NCBI GenBank assembly: GCA_025360015.1 | Contig: JANYCZ010000025.1 | Location: forward strand, 124,001-188,000 | Origin: Verrucomicrobiota bacterium | GTDB taxonomy: Bacteria; Verrucomicrobiota; Verrucomicrobiia; Verrucomicrobiales; Verrucomicrobiaceae | Direction: 5' to 3' | DNA: 64,000 nucleotides | In this document: piece after piece, positions 22,010-26,795 of the stretch | Numbering within the stretch: position 1 is the first letter of the stretch | How the letters are laid out: every line of letters starts with the position of its first letter | The notes under the pieces: model-generated | Database searches by the model: none | What the model was told of the DNA's origin: nothing | Seen by the model: only the letters and a program-made list of their open reading frames with translations | Made by a program: the position numbers and the translations under genes

Positions 22010-22018
22010 CGAATCGTG

Positions 22019-22132
22019 GTGTTTGCAAGTCGTGGGCATGTTCGAATTCGCCGCAGAGGGGCAAAGAGGCAGAGGGAGCGGAGGTTGAATTTTCTCTCTG
22101 CCTCCTCTGCTACTTTGCCTCTCTGCGGCAAA
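22019..22132. repeat. Palindromic intergenic element, full copy A
   Basis: Begins with a GTTTGCAAGTCGTGGGCATG-type head, then GCCGCAGAGGGGCAAAGAGG (22046 onward) and ends with the inverted counterpart CTTTGCCTCTCTGCGGC. The two arms can form a long imperfect hairpin. Two relatives lie at 22195-22267 (left half only) and 22788-22900 (full). Confidence 0.8.
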
Positions 22133-22194
22133 TCGCACATCCCATGCTCTCTTTTTGATCATCGGGCTGGGTTGGCGGCGGCTTGGGAAATCGT

Positions 22195-22267
22195 GTTGTT
22201 TGCAAGTCGTGGGCATGTTCGAATTCGCCGCAGAGGGGCAAAGAGGCAGAGGGGGCGGAGGTTGAAA
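22195..22267. repeat. Palindromic intergenic element, half copy B
   Basis: Nearly identical to the first ~70 bases of copy A but without the closing arm. It abuts the 5' end of the GxxExxY gene and its frame is open into that gene. Confidence 0.8.
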
Positions 22268-22288
22268 GAATCAAAAACTCCGCCACTT

Positions 22289-22729
22289 ATGCGGCTAAAC
22301 GAACCACCCGACGACCCAATGCTTACTGAACCGACTCGATACGAGAATGAGCTCGCCACCCAAATCATCGGTTGTGCGATGATCGTGCATCGTCACTTCG
22401 GGCCGGGGGTGATCGAGAGTGTTTACGAAACCTGTTTCTGTCATGAACTGTCCAAAGTGGGTCTGGACGTGGTGCGTCAGAAGCGCCAGCCAATCATCTA
22501 TGACGGCATCACCTTTGATGACCCGTTCAAGATGGATATATTTGTCAACGAAGCCATCATCATCGAAAACAAAGTCGTTGAAGTGGTTTTGCCGCTGCAC
22601 AAGGCCCAGCTTCGCAGCTACTTGAAACTGGCCAACCGCCGCCTTGGCCTGCTGATCAACTTCAATGTCGAACGCCTCAAGGACGGCATTCATCGTGTCA
22701 TCAACGGCAGTGCGACGTATGATTTGTGA
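22289..22729 (+). CDS. GxxExxY family protein
   Basis: Start taken at ATG 22289, with another in-frame ATG at 22319 that begins closer to the conserved part; the open frame further upstream runs through the repeat and is discounted. The product is about 146 residues. The name-giving motif is present in FGPGVIESVYE (G-x-x-E-x-x-Y), with the usual preceding block ENELATQIIGCAMIVHRHF and the later KMDIFVNEAIIIENKVVE and LRSYLKLANRRLGLLINFN. The family has a PD-(D/E)xK-like look (D in KMDIFV, E-x-K in IIIENK), but its biochemical role is unknown. It sits between palindromic elements (22195-22267 and 22788-22900). Confidence 0.9.
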   Translation: MRLNEPPDDPMLTEPTRYENELATQIIGCAMIVHRHFGPGVIESVYETCFCHELSKVGLDVVRQKRQPIIYDGITFDDPFKMDIFVNEAIIIENKVVEVVLPLHKAQLRSYLKLANRRLGLLINFNVERLKDGIHRVINGSATYDL

Positions 22730-22900: not shown

Positions 22901-23030
22901 ATCCGGACGTCTCAATGCCGCTCCTTGTCATTCCTTGGACATTGGGGTTTACTCATTCGTCATTTGGCGCGAGCGCTGTATCCATTCGTTCAGACCTGTT
23001 TATCAACCCTTCCTTCCCCTGCCCCCATCC

Positions 23031-24200
23031 ATGCCTACTCTTACTGTCCAGCCACGCGCGCGTCTTTTTCACGGTCACCTTTGGGTTTATGCGACGGAGA
23101 TTCAGAAGCGCTTTGGGGATCCGAAGCCGGGGGATGTGGTGCATCTGCAGGATGTGAGGGGGAAGCCGCTGGGGAGTGCAATTTACAATCCGGTGTCGCA
23201 GATTTCGGCGCGGTTGTTTTCGTATCGGCGGCAGGACCTGGATCTGGACTTCTTCACGCGGCGCATTCAGCGGGCGATGAAGGTGCGTGAGGCTGCGGGG
23301 GTGGATCTGAATCTGTGCCGCATTGTGTGGAGCGAGTCGGACGGGCTGCCGGGGTTGATTGTGGACCGCTATGGTGACTTCCTGGTGGTGCAAACGCTGA
23401 CGCTGGCGATGGATCTGCGCAAGGACCTGATCATTCAGTCACTGAATGATGTGCTGAAGCCGCGTGGCATTGTGGAGCGGAATGAAGGCGCGGTGCGCAA
23501 GGCGGAGGGGATGGAGCAGATCAAGGGTGTGATCAGTGGTGAGATGCCGGAGCCGTTTGTGGTGCGGTATCAGGGCAGCGCGTTTCATGCGGATCTGCTG
23601 GAGGGGCAGAAGACGGGGCTGTATCTGGATCAGCTGGACAACTACCAGCTTGTGTCCTCATTGGCGAAGGGGCGGCGGGTGCTGGACTGTTTTTCGAATC
23701 AGGGTGGGTTTGCGCAGGCTTGTGCGCTGGCGGGTGCCAGCGAGGTGACGGCGGTGGACATCAGCGAGTCGGCCACGGAGGTGGCGAAGCAGAATGCGGC
23801 GATTGCGGGGGTGCAGATCCAGTGCATCGCGGAGAACTGTTTTGATTTTCTGAAGCGGAATGAGGCGGCGGATGCGCGGTATGATTTGATCATCCTGGAT
23901 CCGCCGTCGTTCACGAAGACGAAGAGCTCGGTGCGGGATGCGCTGCGGGGGTACAAGGAGATCCACCTGCGGGCGATGAAGATGCTGGAGCCGGGGGGGA
24001 TCTTTGCGACTTTTACGTGCTCGCATCATGTGAGTGCGGAGGAGTTCCACAGCAGCATCACGGATGCGGCGGTGGATGCGAAGAAGACGCTGCGGCGGGT
24101 GACGACGTACACGCAGCGGCCGGATCATCCGATTCTGGCGACGATTCCGGAGACGGAGTATTTGCGCGGGTATGCGTATGAGGTGGTGGCTAGTTGGTGA
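23031..24200 (+). CDS. Class I rRNA cytosine methyltransferase, RlmI-like
   Basis: Start at ATG 23031 (MPTLTVQPRARLFHGHLWVY), where the PUA-type N-terminus of the family begins; an in-frame ATG at 22935 adds 32 unrelated residues. The 389-residue product has a PUA-like domain (GDVVHLQDVRGKPLGSAIYN), a central EEHEE-like domain (RIVWSESDGLPGLIVDRYGD) and a Rossmann methyltransferase domain with VLDCFSNQGGFAQACALAGA, AVDISESA and the catalytic-loop motif LDPPSFTKTK. E. coli RlmI methylates C1962 of 23S rRNA; this is the likely activity. It stands alone after a palindromic repeat. Confidence 0.9.
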   Translation: MPTLTVQPRARLFHGHLWVYATEIQKRFGDPKPGDVVHLQDVRGKPLGSAIYNPVSQISARLFSYRRQDLDLDFFTRRIQRAMKVREAAGVDLNLCRIVWSESDGLPGLIVDRYGDFLVVQTLTLAMDLRKDLIIQSLNDVLKPRGIVERNEGAVRKAEGMEQIKGVISGEMPEPFVVRYQGSAFHADLLEGQKTGLYLDQLDNYQLVSSLAKGRRVLDCFSNQGGFAQACALAGASEVTAVDISESATEVAKQNAAIAGVQIQCIAENCFDFLKRNEAADARYDLIILDPPSFTKTKSSVRDALRGYKEIHLRAMKMLEPGGIFATFTCSHHVSAEEFHSSITDAAVDAKKTLRRVTTYTQRPDHPILATIPETEYLRGYAYEVVASW

Positions 24201-24338
24201 TTGGTGTGTGAAATAGGGTGCCGGGTTATTGTTTCGCCAACCGCGAAATCACGGCATCATTTTGAAAGCCGATTTATTGTTTCGGAACGGAAATATTGAC
24301 CTGGAAAGTGCGCTTGCGCCGCCCTCTACACTACTTGT
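24201..24338. other. Short intergenic region, nothing recognised
   Basis: Between the methyltransferase stop and the convergent DUF4928-like gene. No gene, no clear hairpin. Composition drops in GC here and stays lower across the next two genes. Confidence 0.5.
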
Positions 24339-24902
24339 TTATTTCACTATGACCCGAATGCCCGGCGTGCCCACCTTGGCGATCCAGCGGTTATTATACA
24401 GGTCGAAAAGCTCCTTGAGCTGGCTCACCTTGCCCGCCGCAGAAAAGCCCGCCAGTTCCATGATATTTTGTCCCACGAAGGACTCGATCGATCTCACCAC
24501 CACACGCCCGCGCTGTATTTCAGTATTGCCTCCCACTGCATCTCTCCAACCGATAGTGAGATCATTGCAAGTGAGCAACCAGACCTCCTTTTTGCTGCTG
24601 GCTACCCTTTGTTTAAGCTCTTCGTAGTGCCTGTGGTTCAGCGGATCTACCACGACCTTGATAACGGCGTCGTTGACATGAAATTCTTCCGGTAACGTGG
24701 AAGAAGCGAAAATCTCACGTTTGAATATCTGCGCCAGCACTGCGCATACTAGACCTCGTGCCAGTTCAGCACAACAGCCCAGGCCTCCCGCCGCTAACAA
24801 AAGATCATGAAGCGTCGCCTCGACAGAACGTCGACGAAGCTCAGACTCCAGGCATTGTACAACCGTGGCATTTTGCAGCTTAGAAGAAGGAGGGAAGGTC
24901 AT
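24339..24902 (-). CDS. DUF4928-like protein, restriction-system associated
   Basis: A 187-residue protein. The C-terminal segment VVVRSIESFVGQNIMELAGF followed by LKELFDLYNNRW matches my memory of the DUF4928 signature, found in proteins next to DNA cytosine methyltransferases and restriction genes. The middle part (VNDAVIKVVVDPLNHRHYEELKQRV, then KEVWLLTCNDLTIGW shortened to key words) fits the same family, though it is shorter than usual because the family N-terminus is reduced. Its ATG overlaps the stop of the upstream gene (24899-24902, ATGA), so the pair is co-translated. Base composition and codon use look less GC-rich than neighbours, suggesting acquisition. No methyltransferase is visible. 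Confidence 0.65.
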   Translation of the reverse strand: MTFPPSSKLQNATVVQCLESELRRRSVEATLHDLLLAAGGLGCCAELARGLVCAVLAQIFKREIFASSTLPEEFHVNDAVIKVVVDPLNHRHYEELKQRVASSKKEVWLLTCNDLTIGWRDAVGGNTEIQRGRVVVRSIESFVGQNIMELAGFSAAGKVSQLKELFDLYNNRWIAKVGTPGIRVIVK

Positions 24903-25684
24903 TGGGAACTGTTTTTTAAAATGTTAGTCTGCCATGAAATTTGGATAATTGGACGCTCCTTGCGTGCAAAACTCAAACCGCAGTGCAACGGATTGCGGTA
25001 AATGATATGGTTTGGCTCTTCCGCAAAGTTTCGTACCACAAAAAGAAAGTAATTCTCTGCCAGACAAGAGGCCACATCATACTCCTTTTCCGTGAGGGAC
25101 ACGCCACCAAAACGCTGGGCAAGCCCCTTGACCTCCACCGCAAAAAAGTCCTGCTCGGTATCCTGCCTGGAGAGTCGAAAATCAAACCCACATCCCAGCC
25201 GTGTGGTGTTCTCGGATGAGAATCCTTCGAACTCTGGCACCGTGTGTTTGACCGCCTCGAAATAGTTCTCTGCCGCCGCTCCCGTCATTAGACGCTTGGC
25301 ATATGCTGATTCGCCCTCTTCTTTCTCAAGCTGGAATGCAGCAGCCTGATCATACCCGACGAAGGATTTGATCAGACTTGCGAAGATCTCCAAGTCCAAC
25401 CCGCGATACTCCTCAAAGATTCGCATGCAGTATTCCCTCCTCTTCCGTTTGTGCCAGCCCTGACGTGGGTTGGTGGGAAACATGGGGTCGAACTCATCTC
25501 GATAGTTTTTGATAGAGGCAGGCCTGCCACCGAGCGCATAGCCTACGACATTCATTCCCTCAGTAAAAGTCTCAAACCCTAGTTTGGCCAGCCCCTCCTT
25601 GTCGAACTTGGCCAGATAAAGACCAGTCAATACCTGCTTGTCTCTGCTGGTCAGTTTGGAAGGATCAAGAAGCATCGGTTGCAC
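24899..25684 (-). CDS. DUF3883-like nuclease-fold protein
   Basis: A 261-residue protein with no signal peptide. The C-terminal half holds CGFDFRLSR (Asp), then FFAVEVKGL (E-x-K) and LTEKEYDVASCLAENYFLFVV. This D...E-x-K spacing followed by a Tyr-rich helix is typical of DUF3883/PD-(D/E)xK endonuclease domains in restriction-type defence proteins. The N-terminal half (RDKQVLTGLYLAKFDKEGL, GGRPASIKNYRDEFDP, a HKRKRREYC patch) is helical and basic and may recognise DNA. It is the first gene of a two-gene minus-strand unit with the DUF4928-like gene. Together they look like the nuclease half of a restriction system that lacks its modification gene here. Function is inference. Confidence 0.65.
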   Translation of the reverse strand: MQPMLLDPSKLTSRDKQVLTGLYLAKFDKEGLAKLGFETFTEGMNVVGYALGGRPASIKNYRDEFDPMFPTNPRQGWHKRKRREYCMRIFEEYRGLDLEIFASLIKSFVGYDQAAAFQLEKEEGESAYAKRLMTGAAAENYFEAVKHTVPEFEGFSSENTTRLGCGFDFRLSRQDTEQDFFAVEVKGLAQRFGGVSLTEKEYDVASCLAENYFLFVVRNFAEEPNHIIYRNPLHCGLSFARKERPIIQISWQTNILKNSSQ

Positions 25685-25863
25685 AGATATGAATGAAGCA
25701 TTCTATGCATATCACGCTGATACCAGTCTCATCAATCCAATGCCGGCAAAAAATTCTGCTGCGCGTTTCTGCATAGGCGGAATTAGGCACTGAATGATGC
25801 GGGAAGGCAACTGGCATTTACTCAATCGAACACTATTAAATCACTTACTTTCGTGACCGCATC
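25685..25863. other. Intergenic region, no gene seen
   Basis: Upstream of the DUF3883-like gene. No coding frame or strong palindrome is recognised; any promoter for the restriction-like pair should lie here on the minus strand. Confidence 0.5.
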
Positions 25864-26049
25864 GACAGGAGGGAGAGGGATTTTATCTGCCAGCCGGTGC
25901 ATTCGCGGGAGGAGGTGGGGCAGTCCATGCTGAGGGGGGTGATTGGGACGTTTTTCGGGGGATCGCTGACTCGGGCGCTGGCGACGTATTTGAGGGATCC
26001 AGGGACGAAGGTGAGTAAGGGGGAGGCGGCGGAGTTGAGGCGGTGGTGA
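25864..26049 (+). pseudogene. BlaI/MecI repressor C-terminal remnant, copy 1
   Basis: Translation in frame with 25894 gives PVHSREEVGQSMLRGVIG, then FFGGSLTRALATYL, ending with a stop at 26047-26049. This is the C-terminal dimerisation part of a BlaI-type repressor (usual form: plvsReevgrsml...fgGSl). The helix-turn-helix N-terminus is missing. A second, similar remnant lies 465 bp downstream. The intact blaI-like gene at 35487 has a different C-terminus, so these remnants come from another paralogue. Confidence 0.7.
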
Positions 26050-26795
26050 AGACGGCGAGGTGAACATCAGGCGATAGGCGCGTGATCGGTGGCGGTAGGA
26101 ATTGCAAACTGGGAACTGAAAATTGGCCAGAGGTGCGCGGCGGGGCGTTTGTCAGACGCTGCTGGTAGGCGCTGTGTGAGAAGGAGTCTTGGGTTTGCTT
26201 CCCGTTCATTTTGACCGGGACCCAGGGCGGCGCTCGCTGAGGCTCGCTTGCCCTGGGCTCTATTATGTCGCCCCTTTGGGGCTGTTGAGGTAAGAGCGCT
26301 CAAAGGTTGGAAATTCAATCTTTGGTATTCATTCGAAGGCCATCATGGGTTGAAAATTCCGGTGCATTCGCGGGAGGTGGTGGGGAAGTCCATGCTGAGG
26401 CGGGTGAGCGGGACGTTCTTCGGGGGATCGCTGACGCGGGCGGTGACGGCGTATTTGAGTGATCCGGGGACGAAGCTGAGTGAGGGGGTGGCGGCGGAGT
26501 TGAGGTGGATTTTGGATGAGGTGAAGACGGCGGGATATGAGCCGAGAGGGATCGATGCGAGGTGAAAGTCAGGAGATAGGCGCGTGATCGGTGTGTGTAG
26601 GAATTGCAAACTGGGAACTGAAAATTGGCAGAGGTGAGCGGCGGGGCGTTTGTCAGACGCTGCTGGTGGGCGTGGAGTGTGAAGGAGTCTTGGGTTTGCT
26701 TCCCAGTGTGGCTGACTGAAACCCAGGGAAGCACTCGCTAAAGCTCGGCATCCCTTGGGCTGTATTACGCAGCCCCTTTGGGGCTGAAGAAGGCA
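25894..26795. repeat. Tandem duplication: BlaI remnant plus palindromic intergenic sequence
   Basis: Two units, about 25894-26285 and 26359-26795, each contain the BlaI C-terminal remnant, then a common stretch (ATAGGCGCGTGATCGGTG, AATTGCAAACTGGGAACTG, GGGGCGTTTGTCAGACGCTG, AGGAGTCTTGGGTTTGCTTC), and a closing palindromic block with CCCAGGG ... CCCTGGG and CCCCTTTGGGGCTG. The copies differ by many substitutions and small indels, so the duplication is old. Confidence 0.8.
26359..26565 (+). pseudogene. BlaI/MecI repressor C-terminal remnant, copy 2
   Basis: In-frame segment PVHSREVVGKSMLRRVSG, FFGGSLTRAVTAYL, then AAELRWILDEVKTAGY and a stop at 26563-26565. It keeps about 20 residues more of the C-terminus than copy 1. 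The open frame extends upstream to 26248 only through repeat sequence, so there is no repressor DNA-binding domain. A short expressed peptide cannot be excluded. Confidence 0.7.

Follow-up and report, generated by a model that had tools for sequence, protein, structure and literature searches.

Recurrent NOV_C-family nuclease genes in the place of C5 cytosine methyltransferases at apparently dismantled restriction-modification loci

Introduction

In Streptococcus, DpnI, DpnII and DpnIII are alternative cassettes at one locus, according to PMC12707154. The locus described here may resemble them in that a modification-dependent PD-(D/E)xK nuclease and a modification-blocked restriction-modification (RM) system would be alternatives to each other, the modification dependence of our nuclease, P0001, being a proposal. 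Unlike the Dpn cassettes, genes of the P0001 family sit inside the methyltransferase (MTase) gene and leave stubs of it, with many MTase classes and in many phyla. We claim no sequence kinship with DpnI, whose fold match to P0001 (Z 5.5) is middling. The domain of P0001, NOV_C or DUF3883 (PF13020), is named as a restriction endonuclease (REase) domain in the portions of PMC3710099 and PMC10609329 at hand; P0001 has the same domain in a restriction context, and replacement of a C5 MTase is not described in those portions. A literature search, judged by titles and abstract openings and covering few subscription journals, gave no description of NOV_C inside C5 MTase genes.

The McrBC Type IV system is alike in that an McrB-like protein of another genome (G194), which is paired with an McrC-like protein, begins with an N-terminal domain of the P0001 type; unlike McrBC, P0001 has no NTPase and brings its own nuclease domain. 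I-Ssp6803I (PDB 2ost) has the nuclease fold in common with P0001 (Z 6.5) and is likewise encoded by a gene lodged in another gene, whereas for NOV_C no intron and no constant site were found, the target gene is destroyed and there is an additional N-domain. The neighbour of P0001, P0002, corresponds to the C-terminal half of the DUF4928 Type II REases (PADLOC REase_II, PDLC03543), belongs to the same Pfam family, and its model resembles EcoT38I; unlike the full-length enzymes, P0002 lacks the N-domain, has changed residues and no intact MTase, and is not matched by the PADLOC model. For an RM operon, losing the MTase should be a dead end if not lethal.

Results

The window, the whole stretch of 64,000 nucleotides that was analysed, contains the following features at the locus:

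24899-25684, minus strand: P0001, NOV_C-family nuclease of 261 aa with a GTG start, composed of a helical N-domain and a PD-(D/E)xK domain
25349-25684, minus strand: helical N-terminal domain of P0001 (residues 1-112), its best conserved part, akin to the N-terminus of the McrB-like protein of G194
24950-25312, minus strand: PD-(D/E)xK nuclease domain of P0001 (residues 125-245) with E139, D168 and E184-x-K186
24339-24902, minus strand: P0002, C-terminal half of a DUF4928 Type II REase, 187 aa, N-terminal domain absent and conserved residues changed
25712-25774, minus strand: ORF of 21 codons, MQKRAAEFFAGIGLMRLVSA (20 residues and a stop), whose first 17 or so codons are a C5 cytosine MTase start with motif I
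25723-25810, minus strand: DNA that by blastn resembles the beginning of the intact L056 C5 MTase gene and some 36 bp preceding its start codon

The initial annotation had described two ORFs coupled by ATGA, named them DUF3883-like and DUF4928-like, ascribed a D...E-x-K site to the first and associated both families with restriction or other defence systems. The coordinates, names, coupling, active site and restriction connection hold; both ORFs are on the minus strand, and the ATGA overlap is at 24899-24902. In profile searches P0001 matched PF13020 NOV_C, which we take to be the former DUF3883 (E 1.3e-10, 41.7 bits, gathering cut-off 22.1), and P0002 matched PF16280 DUF4928 (E 3.4e-7, 30.3 bits, cut-off 25) at profile positions 198-296 of 306 only. 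All of the 76 aligned rows share the active-site residues E139, D168, E184 and K186 without exception, so the PD-(D/E)xK site of P0001 is complete. The predicted structure (pLDDT 93.9) consists of the helical N-domain and the nuclease domain, and a structure search with the latter gave TSEN, SPARDA, Hjc and RecU as top matches, together with I-Ssp6803I, Eco15I, EcoRV and DpnI, all at Z 5.5-8.2, a middling range that tells the fold and not the function. Conservation, taken as the share of the commonest residue, is higher in the N-domain (0.67) than in the nuclease domain (0.58), which would suit one ligand common to the family. PADLOC detected in P0001 only the C-terminal part of its TmtA models (best E 1.5e-8), and sequence searches of the PDB returned nothing useful. 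At other loci than the window, dN/dS of NOV_C pairs is 0.04-0.18 where dS is computable. Judged by sequence and model, the NOV_C half of the pair is complete, confidently predicted and conserved.

The P0002 ORF begins near position 120 of the DUF4928 profile, so its N-domain is incomplete. Conserved residues are changed (GDF to EEF, IHVT to IKVV, GAKLE to CAVLA) and its end branch in the DUF4928 tree measures 6.6 changes per column. The P0002 model (pLDDT 76) resembles EcoT38I at Z 9.3, with 166 residues aligned and an rmsd of 5.1. PADLOC gave no family for P0002 up to E 1; its REase_II model, which full-length members match, calls the DUF4928 proteins of L052 and L056 Type II REases (E 1.8e-39 and 6.5e-38). 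From its sequence we infer that P0002 is probably a decaying passenger at this locus. A remnant, one of the options that the initial annotation had left open, thus describes P0002 and not the complete P0001.

Among 387 genomes of the phylum, DUF4928 is present in 11 (the window's own included), at 12 places. Outside the window there are 11 such places, and in 8 of them a C5 MTase lies directly upstream. The exceptions are L043 with NOV_C instead, L055 with none and L057, where the contig ends. Because of these 8 places and the PADLOC calls, we take a C5 MTase followed by the REase to be the normal DUF4928 operon.

Ending 27 bp upstream of the P0001 start we noticed a C5 MTase start, MQKRAAEFFAGIGLMRL, broken off in motif I, whose first 17 residues are comparable to MQKLAAEFFAGIGLMRMGL of L056 and MPKRAAEFFAGIGLMRMGL of L083. 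This stub was found by a profile of DUF4928-linked MTases (HMM positions 29-58, E 6e-4) and by a motif I regular expression. By blastn its DNA is similar to L056 (71%, E 1.5e-6) and, over a shorter part, to L083 (77%, E 2.2e-6). PF00145 searched over the whole own genome did not reach the 17-codon stub and matched two full-length C5 MTases elsewhere. The "missing" METHYLTRANSFERASE of the window is on these matches not wholly missing, its 5' start remaining. The earlier view that there was no visible MTase is therefore right for an intact gene, since beside the REase stands the 17-codon start only, and had overlooked the stub; as in modification-dependent restriction, where the REase lacks a partner MTase, no intact C5 MTase lies beside the nuclease. 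By these comparisons a C5-MTase/DUF4928-REase operon has left both its ends in the window, namely the beginning of the MTase gene and the 3' part of the REase gene, and between these ends one complete NOV_C PD-(D/E)xK gene appears to replace nearly all of the MTase together with the REase N-terminal domain.

A partner MTase elsewhere, as had been suggested, was discarded: the two full-length C5 MTases of the genome lie apart, one of them in an MTase/HATPase/Z1/DUF4420 cluster, and no link to the pair was found. As an observation apart, such a cluster (C5 MTase, HATPase, Z1 and DUF4420 PD-(D/E)XK) is located at L059 on contig C68 of the own genome; its last gene resembles the AIPR gene on a Hymenobacter plasmid, and the plasmid version has NOV_C mid-cluster.

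Around the locus, the chromosomal site is marked by these features:

22995-24201, plus strand: conserved class I SAM methyltransferase gene on the left flank, presumably RlmI-like
25859-26043, plus strand: 3' piece of a regulator gene, presumably BlaI/MecI-like, that is open over its length at the site in L155 and L154
26359-26531, plus strand: second copy of the regulator 3' piece, a direct repeat (89%)

The composition is unlike that of the neighbours, as first noted: G+C is 0.52 at 24-26 kb against 0.60 at 23-24 kb and 0.58 at 26-27 kb, though 22-23 kb is also low (0.54), and GC3 of the two genes is 0.576 and 0.580 against 0.73-0.85 for four neighbours. Repeat-rich borders, also noted before, are present on both sides. 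On the left a 128-nt repeat occurs at 22017, 22194 and 22787. On the right a 150-nt direct repeat (25894-26043 and 26359-26508) consists of copies of the regulator 3' end, a truncated and duplicated remnant; the regulator gene survives in the window solely as these two 3' copies. We also observed a PDDEXK_3 (PF13366) ORF at 22124-22729 on the plus strand (E 5.4e-36) among the 128-nt copies, and two sub-threshold Acido-Lenti-1 RNA matches inside the duplicated region, 26251-26283 and 26722-26785 (28.7 and 23.2 bits, gathering cut-off 37).

In two sister species, L155 and L154, the left gene and genes further right are conserved at the site; in six other genomes of the genus the left gene alone aligned. 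At the same site L155 carries an AAA_21/AAA_15 ATPase with AriA/Old-like PADLOC matches and L154 a NACHT protein (PADLOC at E 0.0018 only). Both thus carry other defence-like genes, not RM, and RM flanks remain around NOV_C in the window.

Matches to P0001 occur in 19 of the 387 phylum genomes, counting the own one, and many of these matches are distant or partial. Scanning a single genome for each species yielded 136 relatives. The 80 best of these, the window and six close loci from the phylum make up 87 oriented loci, or 85 distinct ones, since L038/L108 and L040/L123 are same-contig pairs. Left out were G201, whose NOV_C is split over two contigs, and distant relatives. An upstream C5 MTase remnant that includes the N-terminal part was detected in at least 45 of the 87 loci (44 of the 85 distinct ones, window included), leaving 41 of 85 with no stub detected; these counts are lower bounds, and L114, by eye, retains only about a dozen MTase-start codons (MKTYPKTVAEFF). 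Motif I alone was found upstream in 40 of 87 loci, and in none of the 87 either downstream or, as a control, on the upstream reverse strand. The remnants belong to several MTase classes and have different breakpoints, with profile end points from 58 to 322 of 422. Their rows carry origin labels from about twelve phyla, mostly of metagenome-assembled genomes, so that single labels may be wrong.

PF00145 confirms stubs in the genomes of L101, L102, L106, L089 and L099, and directly in L083, L102 (1-143) and L106 (1-114); further stubs match it, of 324 positions, at 1-45 (G326), 2-73 (G307) and 3-49 (G379). By the same profile the sole C5 MTase match in the genome is the stub in G326 and G379 and a C-terminal piece in G201 (completeness 90, 82 and 93%). 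Two MTase profiles built for this analysis showed no intact C5 MTase within 2.5 kb of NOV_C in the 87 loci, nor in the flanks retrieved for the 80 loci of the scan, which reached up to 8 kb and in many cases stopped at a contig end. From these sequences a dismantled MTase is frequent across the NOV_C family. A plain Type II REase pair was rejected: no close relative was seen with an intact MTase beside it, and the conserved residues of P0002 are changed. The distant relatives L048 and L015 (25-30% identity) are located beside or near full-length C5 MTases. In L133 the upstream remnant is about 0.7 kb off, and a partial C5 MTase ORF on the opposite strand (HMM 44-242 of 422) lies just downstream.

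The two-gene unit recurs, as the initial annotation had asked: DUF4928 is downstream of NOV_C in 15 of 87 loci. It starts at HMM positions 112-127 of 308 in 11 of the 15, at 160 in L114 and at 198 in the window; in L137 it is cut by the contig end and in L043 it is full length. The counter-case then imagined, a pair always beside a C5 MTase that was lost only here, did not turn up. Because the MTase is a remnant (12) or not detected (3) in all 15, its loss is not peculiar to this genome.

Pieces of the RM system occur on the other side as well. An MTase C-terminal piece is found 3' of NOV_C in L089, L099 and L112, and in G201 on the contig with the NOV_C 3' end. In L089 and L099 NOV_C lies inside the MTase gene, the 5' part upstream and the C-terminal piece directly downstream. 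An MTase motif IX piece stands between the 5' stub and NOV_C in L125. HindVP REase is encoded upstream in L112, near complete beside the dismantled MTase, and as a fragment in G201. Vsr, a companion of C5 MTases, is encoded upstream in L062, L071, L084 and L108, and before the stub in L066. Small ORFs just 3' of NOV_C were observed in different clades (L102 8732-8962, L093 2108-2326, L064 8785-9081); one of these is Cys-rich (WECYLCG...NYHPLC). These ORFs have no Pfam match and are possible partners or inhibitors. Small ORFs in this position are mostly not MTase C-termini, given that 2 of 10 scanned match DUF4928 and the rest nothing over the cut-off. Stub ends reading IAA and a stop, seen by eye in a few loci, are not general and were discarded as a common element edge.

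Between L083 and the intact L056 two blocks align: the initial 370 bp of the MTase gene and the final ~580 bp of the REase gene. NOV_C replaces the ~1.16 kb between them. In the DUF4928 tree, NOV-linked members are interleaved with intact ones: 5 changes, 4 of them forced by starred branches, and a single clade has an AU p of 3.2e-8 in a tree that left out four rows, the window among them; with all 24 rows there are 6 changes, 3 forced. By these trees and alignments, the combination of a dismantled RM system with NOV_C has arisen repeatedly and independently. The NOV_C tree has 84 rows and omits L038, L040 and L078. On this tree the MTase classes, assigned from motif I, cluster, with 33 changes against a shuffled mean of 41.0 and none of 200 shuffles as low. 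Stub absence is scattered on it (29 changes, shuffled mean 28.2), and because it is unclustered we do not claim one ancestral insertion.

Synonymous divergence differs between NOV_C and its stubs in some pairs. NOV_C dS is 0.31 for L101/L106 and 0.21 for L102/L106; stub dS is saturated with a dN of 0.13-0.14, for which reason the stubs of L101 and L102 on the one hand and L106 on the other seem to stem from two long-separated functional MTases. For L089/L099, NOV_C dS is 0.24 and stub dS 2.5 over 68 codons. In 60-bp windows, identity between L102 and L106 is 68-82% in the stub, 87-98% in NOV_C (from about -35 bp to the stop) and 39-62% downstream; the L089/L099 mosaic is less sharp (NOV_C 82-97%, flanks mostly below 80%). 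The gene thus moved apart from its flanks in L101/L102 against L106 and in L089/L099, and not in other pairs; in L063/L066, L083/L088 and L138/L039 the stub is closer than NOV_C by dS, so the ORF mosaic is not general. Either transplantation or conversion of the NOV_C ORF between loci would account for such mosaics.

The stop of the stub falls within -25 to +10 of the NOV_C start in 32 of 43 stub loci, whereas the two remaining frames give 31 of 86 (Fisher p 7e-5; L100, without a usable start codon, left out); the window stub, with its stop at -27, is just outside this range. Overlaps of 1-4 bp between stub and NOV_C occur in 8 of 43, against 8 of 86 in the other frames. To judge by this placement, the reading frame of the stub is apparently adjusted to the nuclease. 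In 31 of 43 loci the end of the MTase profile match is no more than 56 bp from the NOV_C start, and stub lengths differ within clades (L090, L091, L097, L104).

The N-domain of P0001 has a relative in a different protein:

L167 4314-6851, minus strand: McrB-like protein with a NOV_C-type N-domain

In G194 this domain (32%, E 2.7e-9) heads an 845-aa protein in which no Pfam family reaches its cut-off. For the NTPase part of this protein, the PDB gave matches (E 1.4e-6) to chains with the name 5-methylcytosine-specific restriction enzyme B. An McrC-like protein (DUF2357 and PDDEXK_7) follows, and the McrB-like gene adjoins an intact C5 MTase and EcoRII-C operon. L167 is a dense defence island, in which the McrB-like gene and its McrC-like partner stand between the intact C5 MTase and EcoRII-C operon and an RdrB-like gene.

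A phage origin was rejected, as one viral_contigs scan with one degenerate pattern yielded 49 matches and no relative among them; a plasmid search gave 2 relatives for P0001 and none for P0002. An intron host was likewise discarded: in the window and 10 further loci Rfam gave no match to an intron family at the site, and a group II intron in L063 is ~6 kb away.

Discussion

We favour, at not quite an even chance, the reading of NOV_C as a PD-(D/E)xK restriction nuclease that acts alone, usurps C5 RM loci and most likely depends on methylation in the manner of DpnI. Such a nuclease would take over the expression signals of these loci. Its N-domain would most likely read a feature common to all contexts, 5-methylcytosine (5mC) being the first candidate, and the nuclease would cut DNA formerly protected by the lost RM system, an inversion like that of DpnI versus DpnII. 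Cutting of 5mC-containing DNA would account for our seeing no close relative next to an intact MTase. Blanket 5mC dependence is unlikely and context specificity would be needed, because full-length C5 MTases occur elsewhere in several NOV_C genomes, the own one included, and also beside or near distant relatives. By prediction the N-domain consists of helices only and, to our knowledge, is not a known modified-base pocket. In another formulation, which we put forward tentatively and think somewhat improbable, NOV_C genes would be single-ORF invaders that replace the MTase body, keep the MTase translation start to drive themselves and turn protection into attack on methylated or MTase-bearing DNA of kin.

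In favour of a takeover we count the window stub, the recurrent upstream remnants, the DUF4928 members that do not form a single clade, the L102/L106 mosaic, the stub-stop placement, the invariant active site, the conserved N-domain with its McrB-like kin, and the defence genes of the sister species at the site. Against it stand the positions of L048, L015 and the N-domain carrier of G194 near intact C5 MTases, the 41 of 85 stub-free loci, the partial MTase of L133, the near-complete HindVP REase of L112 and the failure of PF00145 to match the window stub.

The main rival to the DpnI-like reading is homing-like spread, which we consider unlikely: NOV_C would cut intact C5 MTase alleles, be copied into the break and spread as a single-ORF mobile unit, and, in the same doubtful account, RM wreckage would be a side effect and the stubs landing sites and homology arms. 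This would agree with NOV_C inside the MTase gene in L089 and L099, with the C-terminal MTase piece after NOV_C in L112 and G201, with the ORF-bounded mosaic of L102/L106 (downstream identity 60% and falling) and the less sharp one of L089/L099, with the adherence of NOV_C clades to MTase classes and with the fold common to I-Ssp6803I. Insertion points, however, are not constant (MTase HMM end 58 to 322), no intron family was found at the site in the loci searched, the one viral scan gave no relative, the top fold matches are TSEN, SPARDA, Hjc and RecU, and two sister species carry other defence-like genes where the window has NOV_C.

Less probable still is decay of RM operons, in which NOV_C would be a former third gene (Type II REase or accessory) of C5 RM operons, the MTase and the other REase having eroded independently, and NOV_C would have been kept, perhaps as a modification-independent nuclease. 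The distant relatives that adjoin or lie near full-length C5 MTases fit this, as do the varying stub lengths within clades, the frequent absence of stubs and the motif IX piece of L125. DUF3883 is also treated as a REase domain in PMC3710099 and PMC10609329. Erosion would usually leave MTase 3' pieces, yet the profile match ends at most 56 bp from NOV_C in 31 of 43 loci; NOV_C is inside the MTase gene, not behind it, in L089 and L099, and MTase alleles whose dS is saturated harbour NOV_C genes that are close to each other. An unprotected active Type II REase would be lethal, which also counts against decay. That both genes are non-functional debris of a defence locus is very improbable: P0002 with its changed residues and missing N-domain would fit, whereas P0001 is complete, with invariant catalytic residues and a pLDDT of 93.9, and NOV_C dN/dS is 0.04-0.18 at other loci.

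Replacement of the MTase recurs with the same anatomy in many phyla, with an intact-active-site nuclease in place, and hints at a way in which bacteria turn one kind of anti-virus defence into another. Should NOV_C home, it would be a selfish element with RM systems as its prey. Should its cutting depend on methylation, the family would amount to a general switch of the DpnI/DpnII kind, acting on cytosine methylation, and would readily supply new 5mC-dependent enzymes, and if NOV_C genes are invaders that turn protection into attack, they would represent a recurrent inversion of immunity across many phyla.
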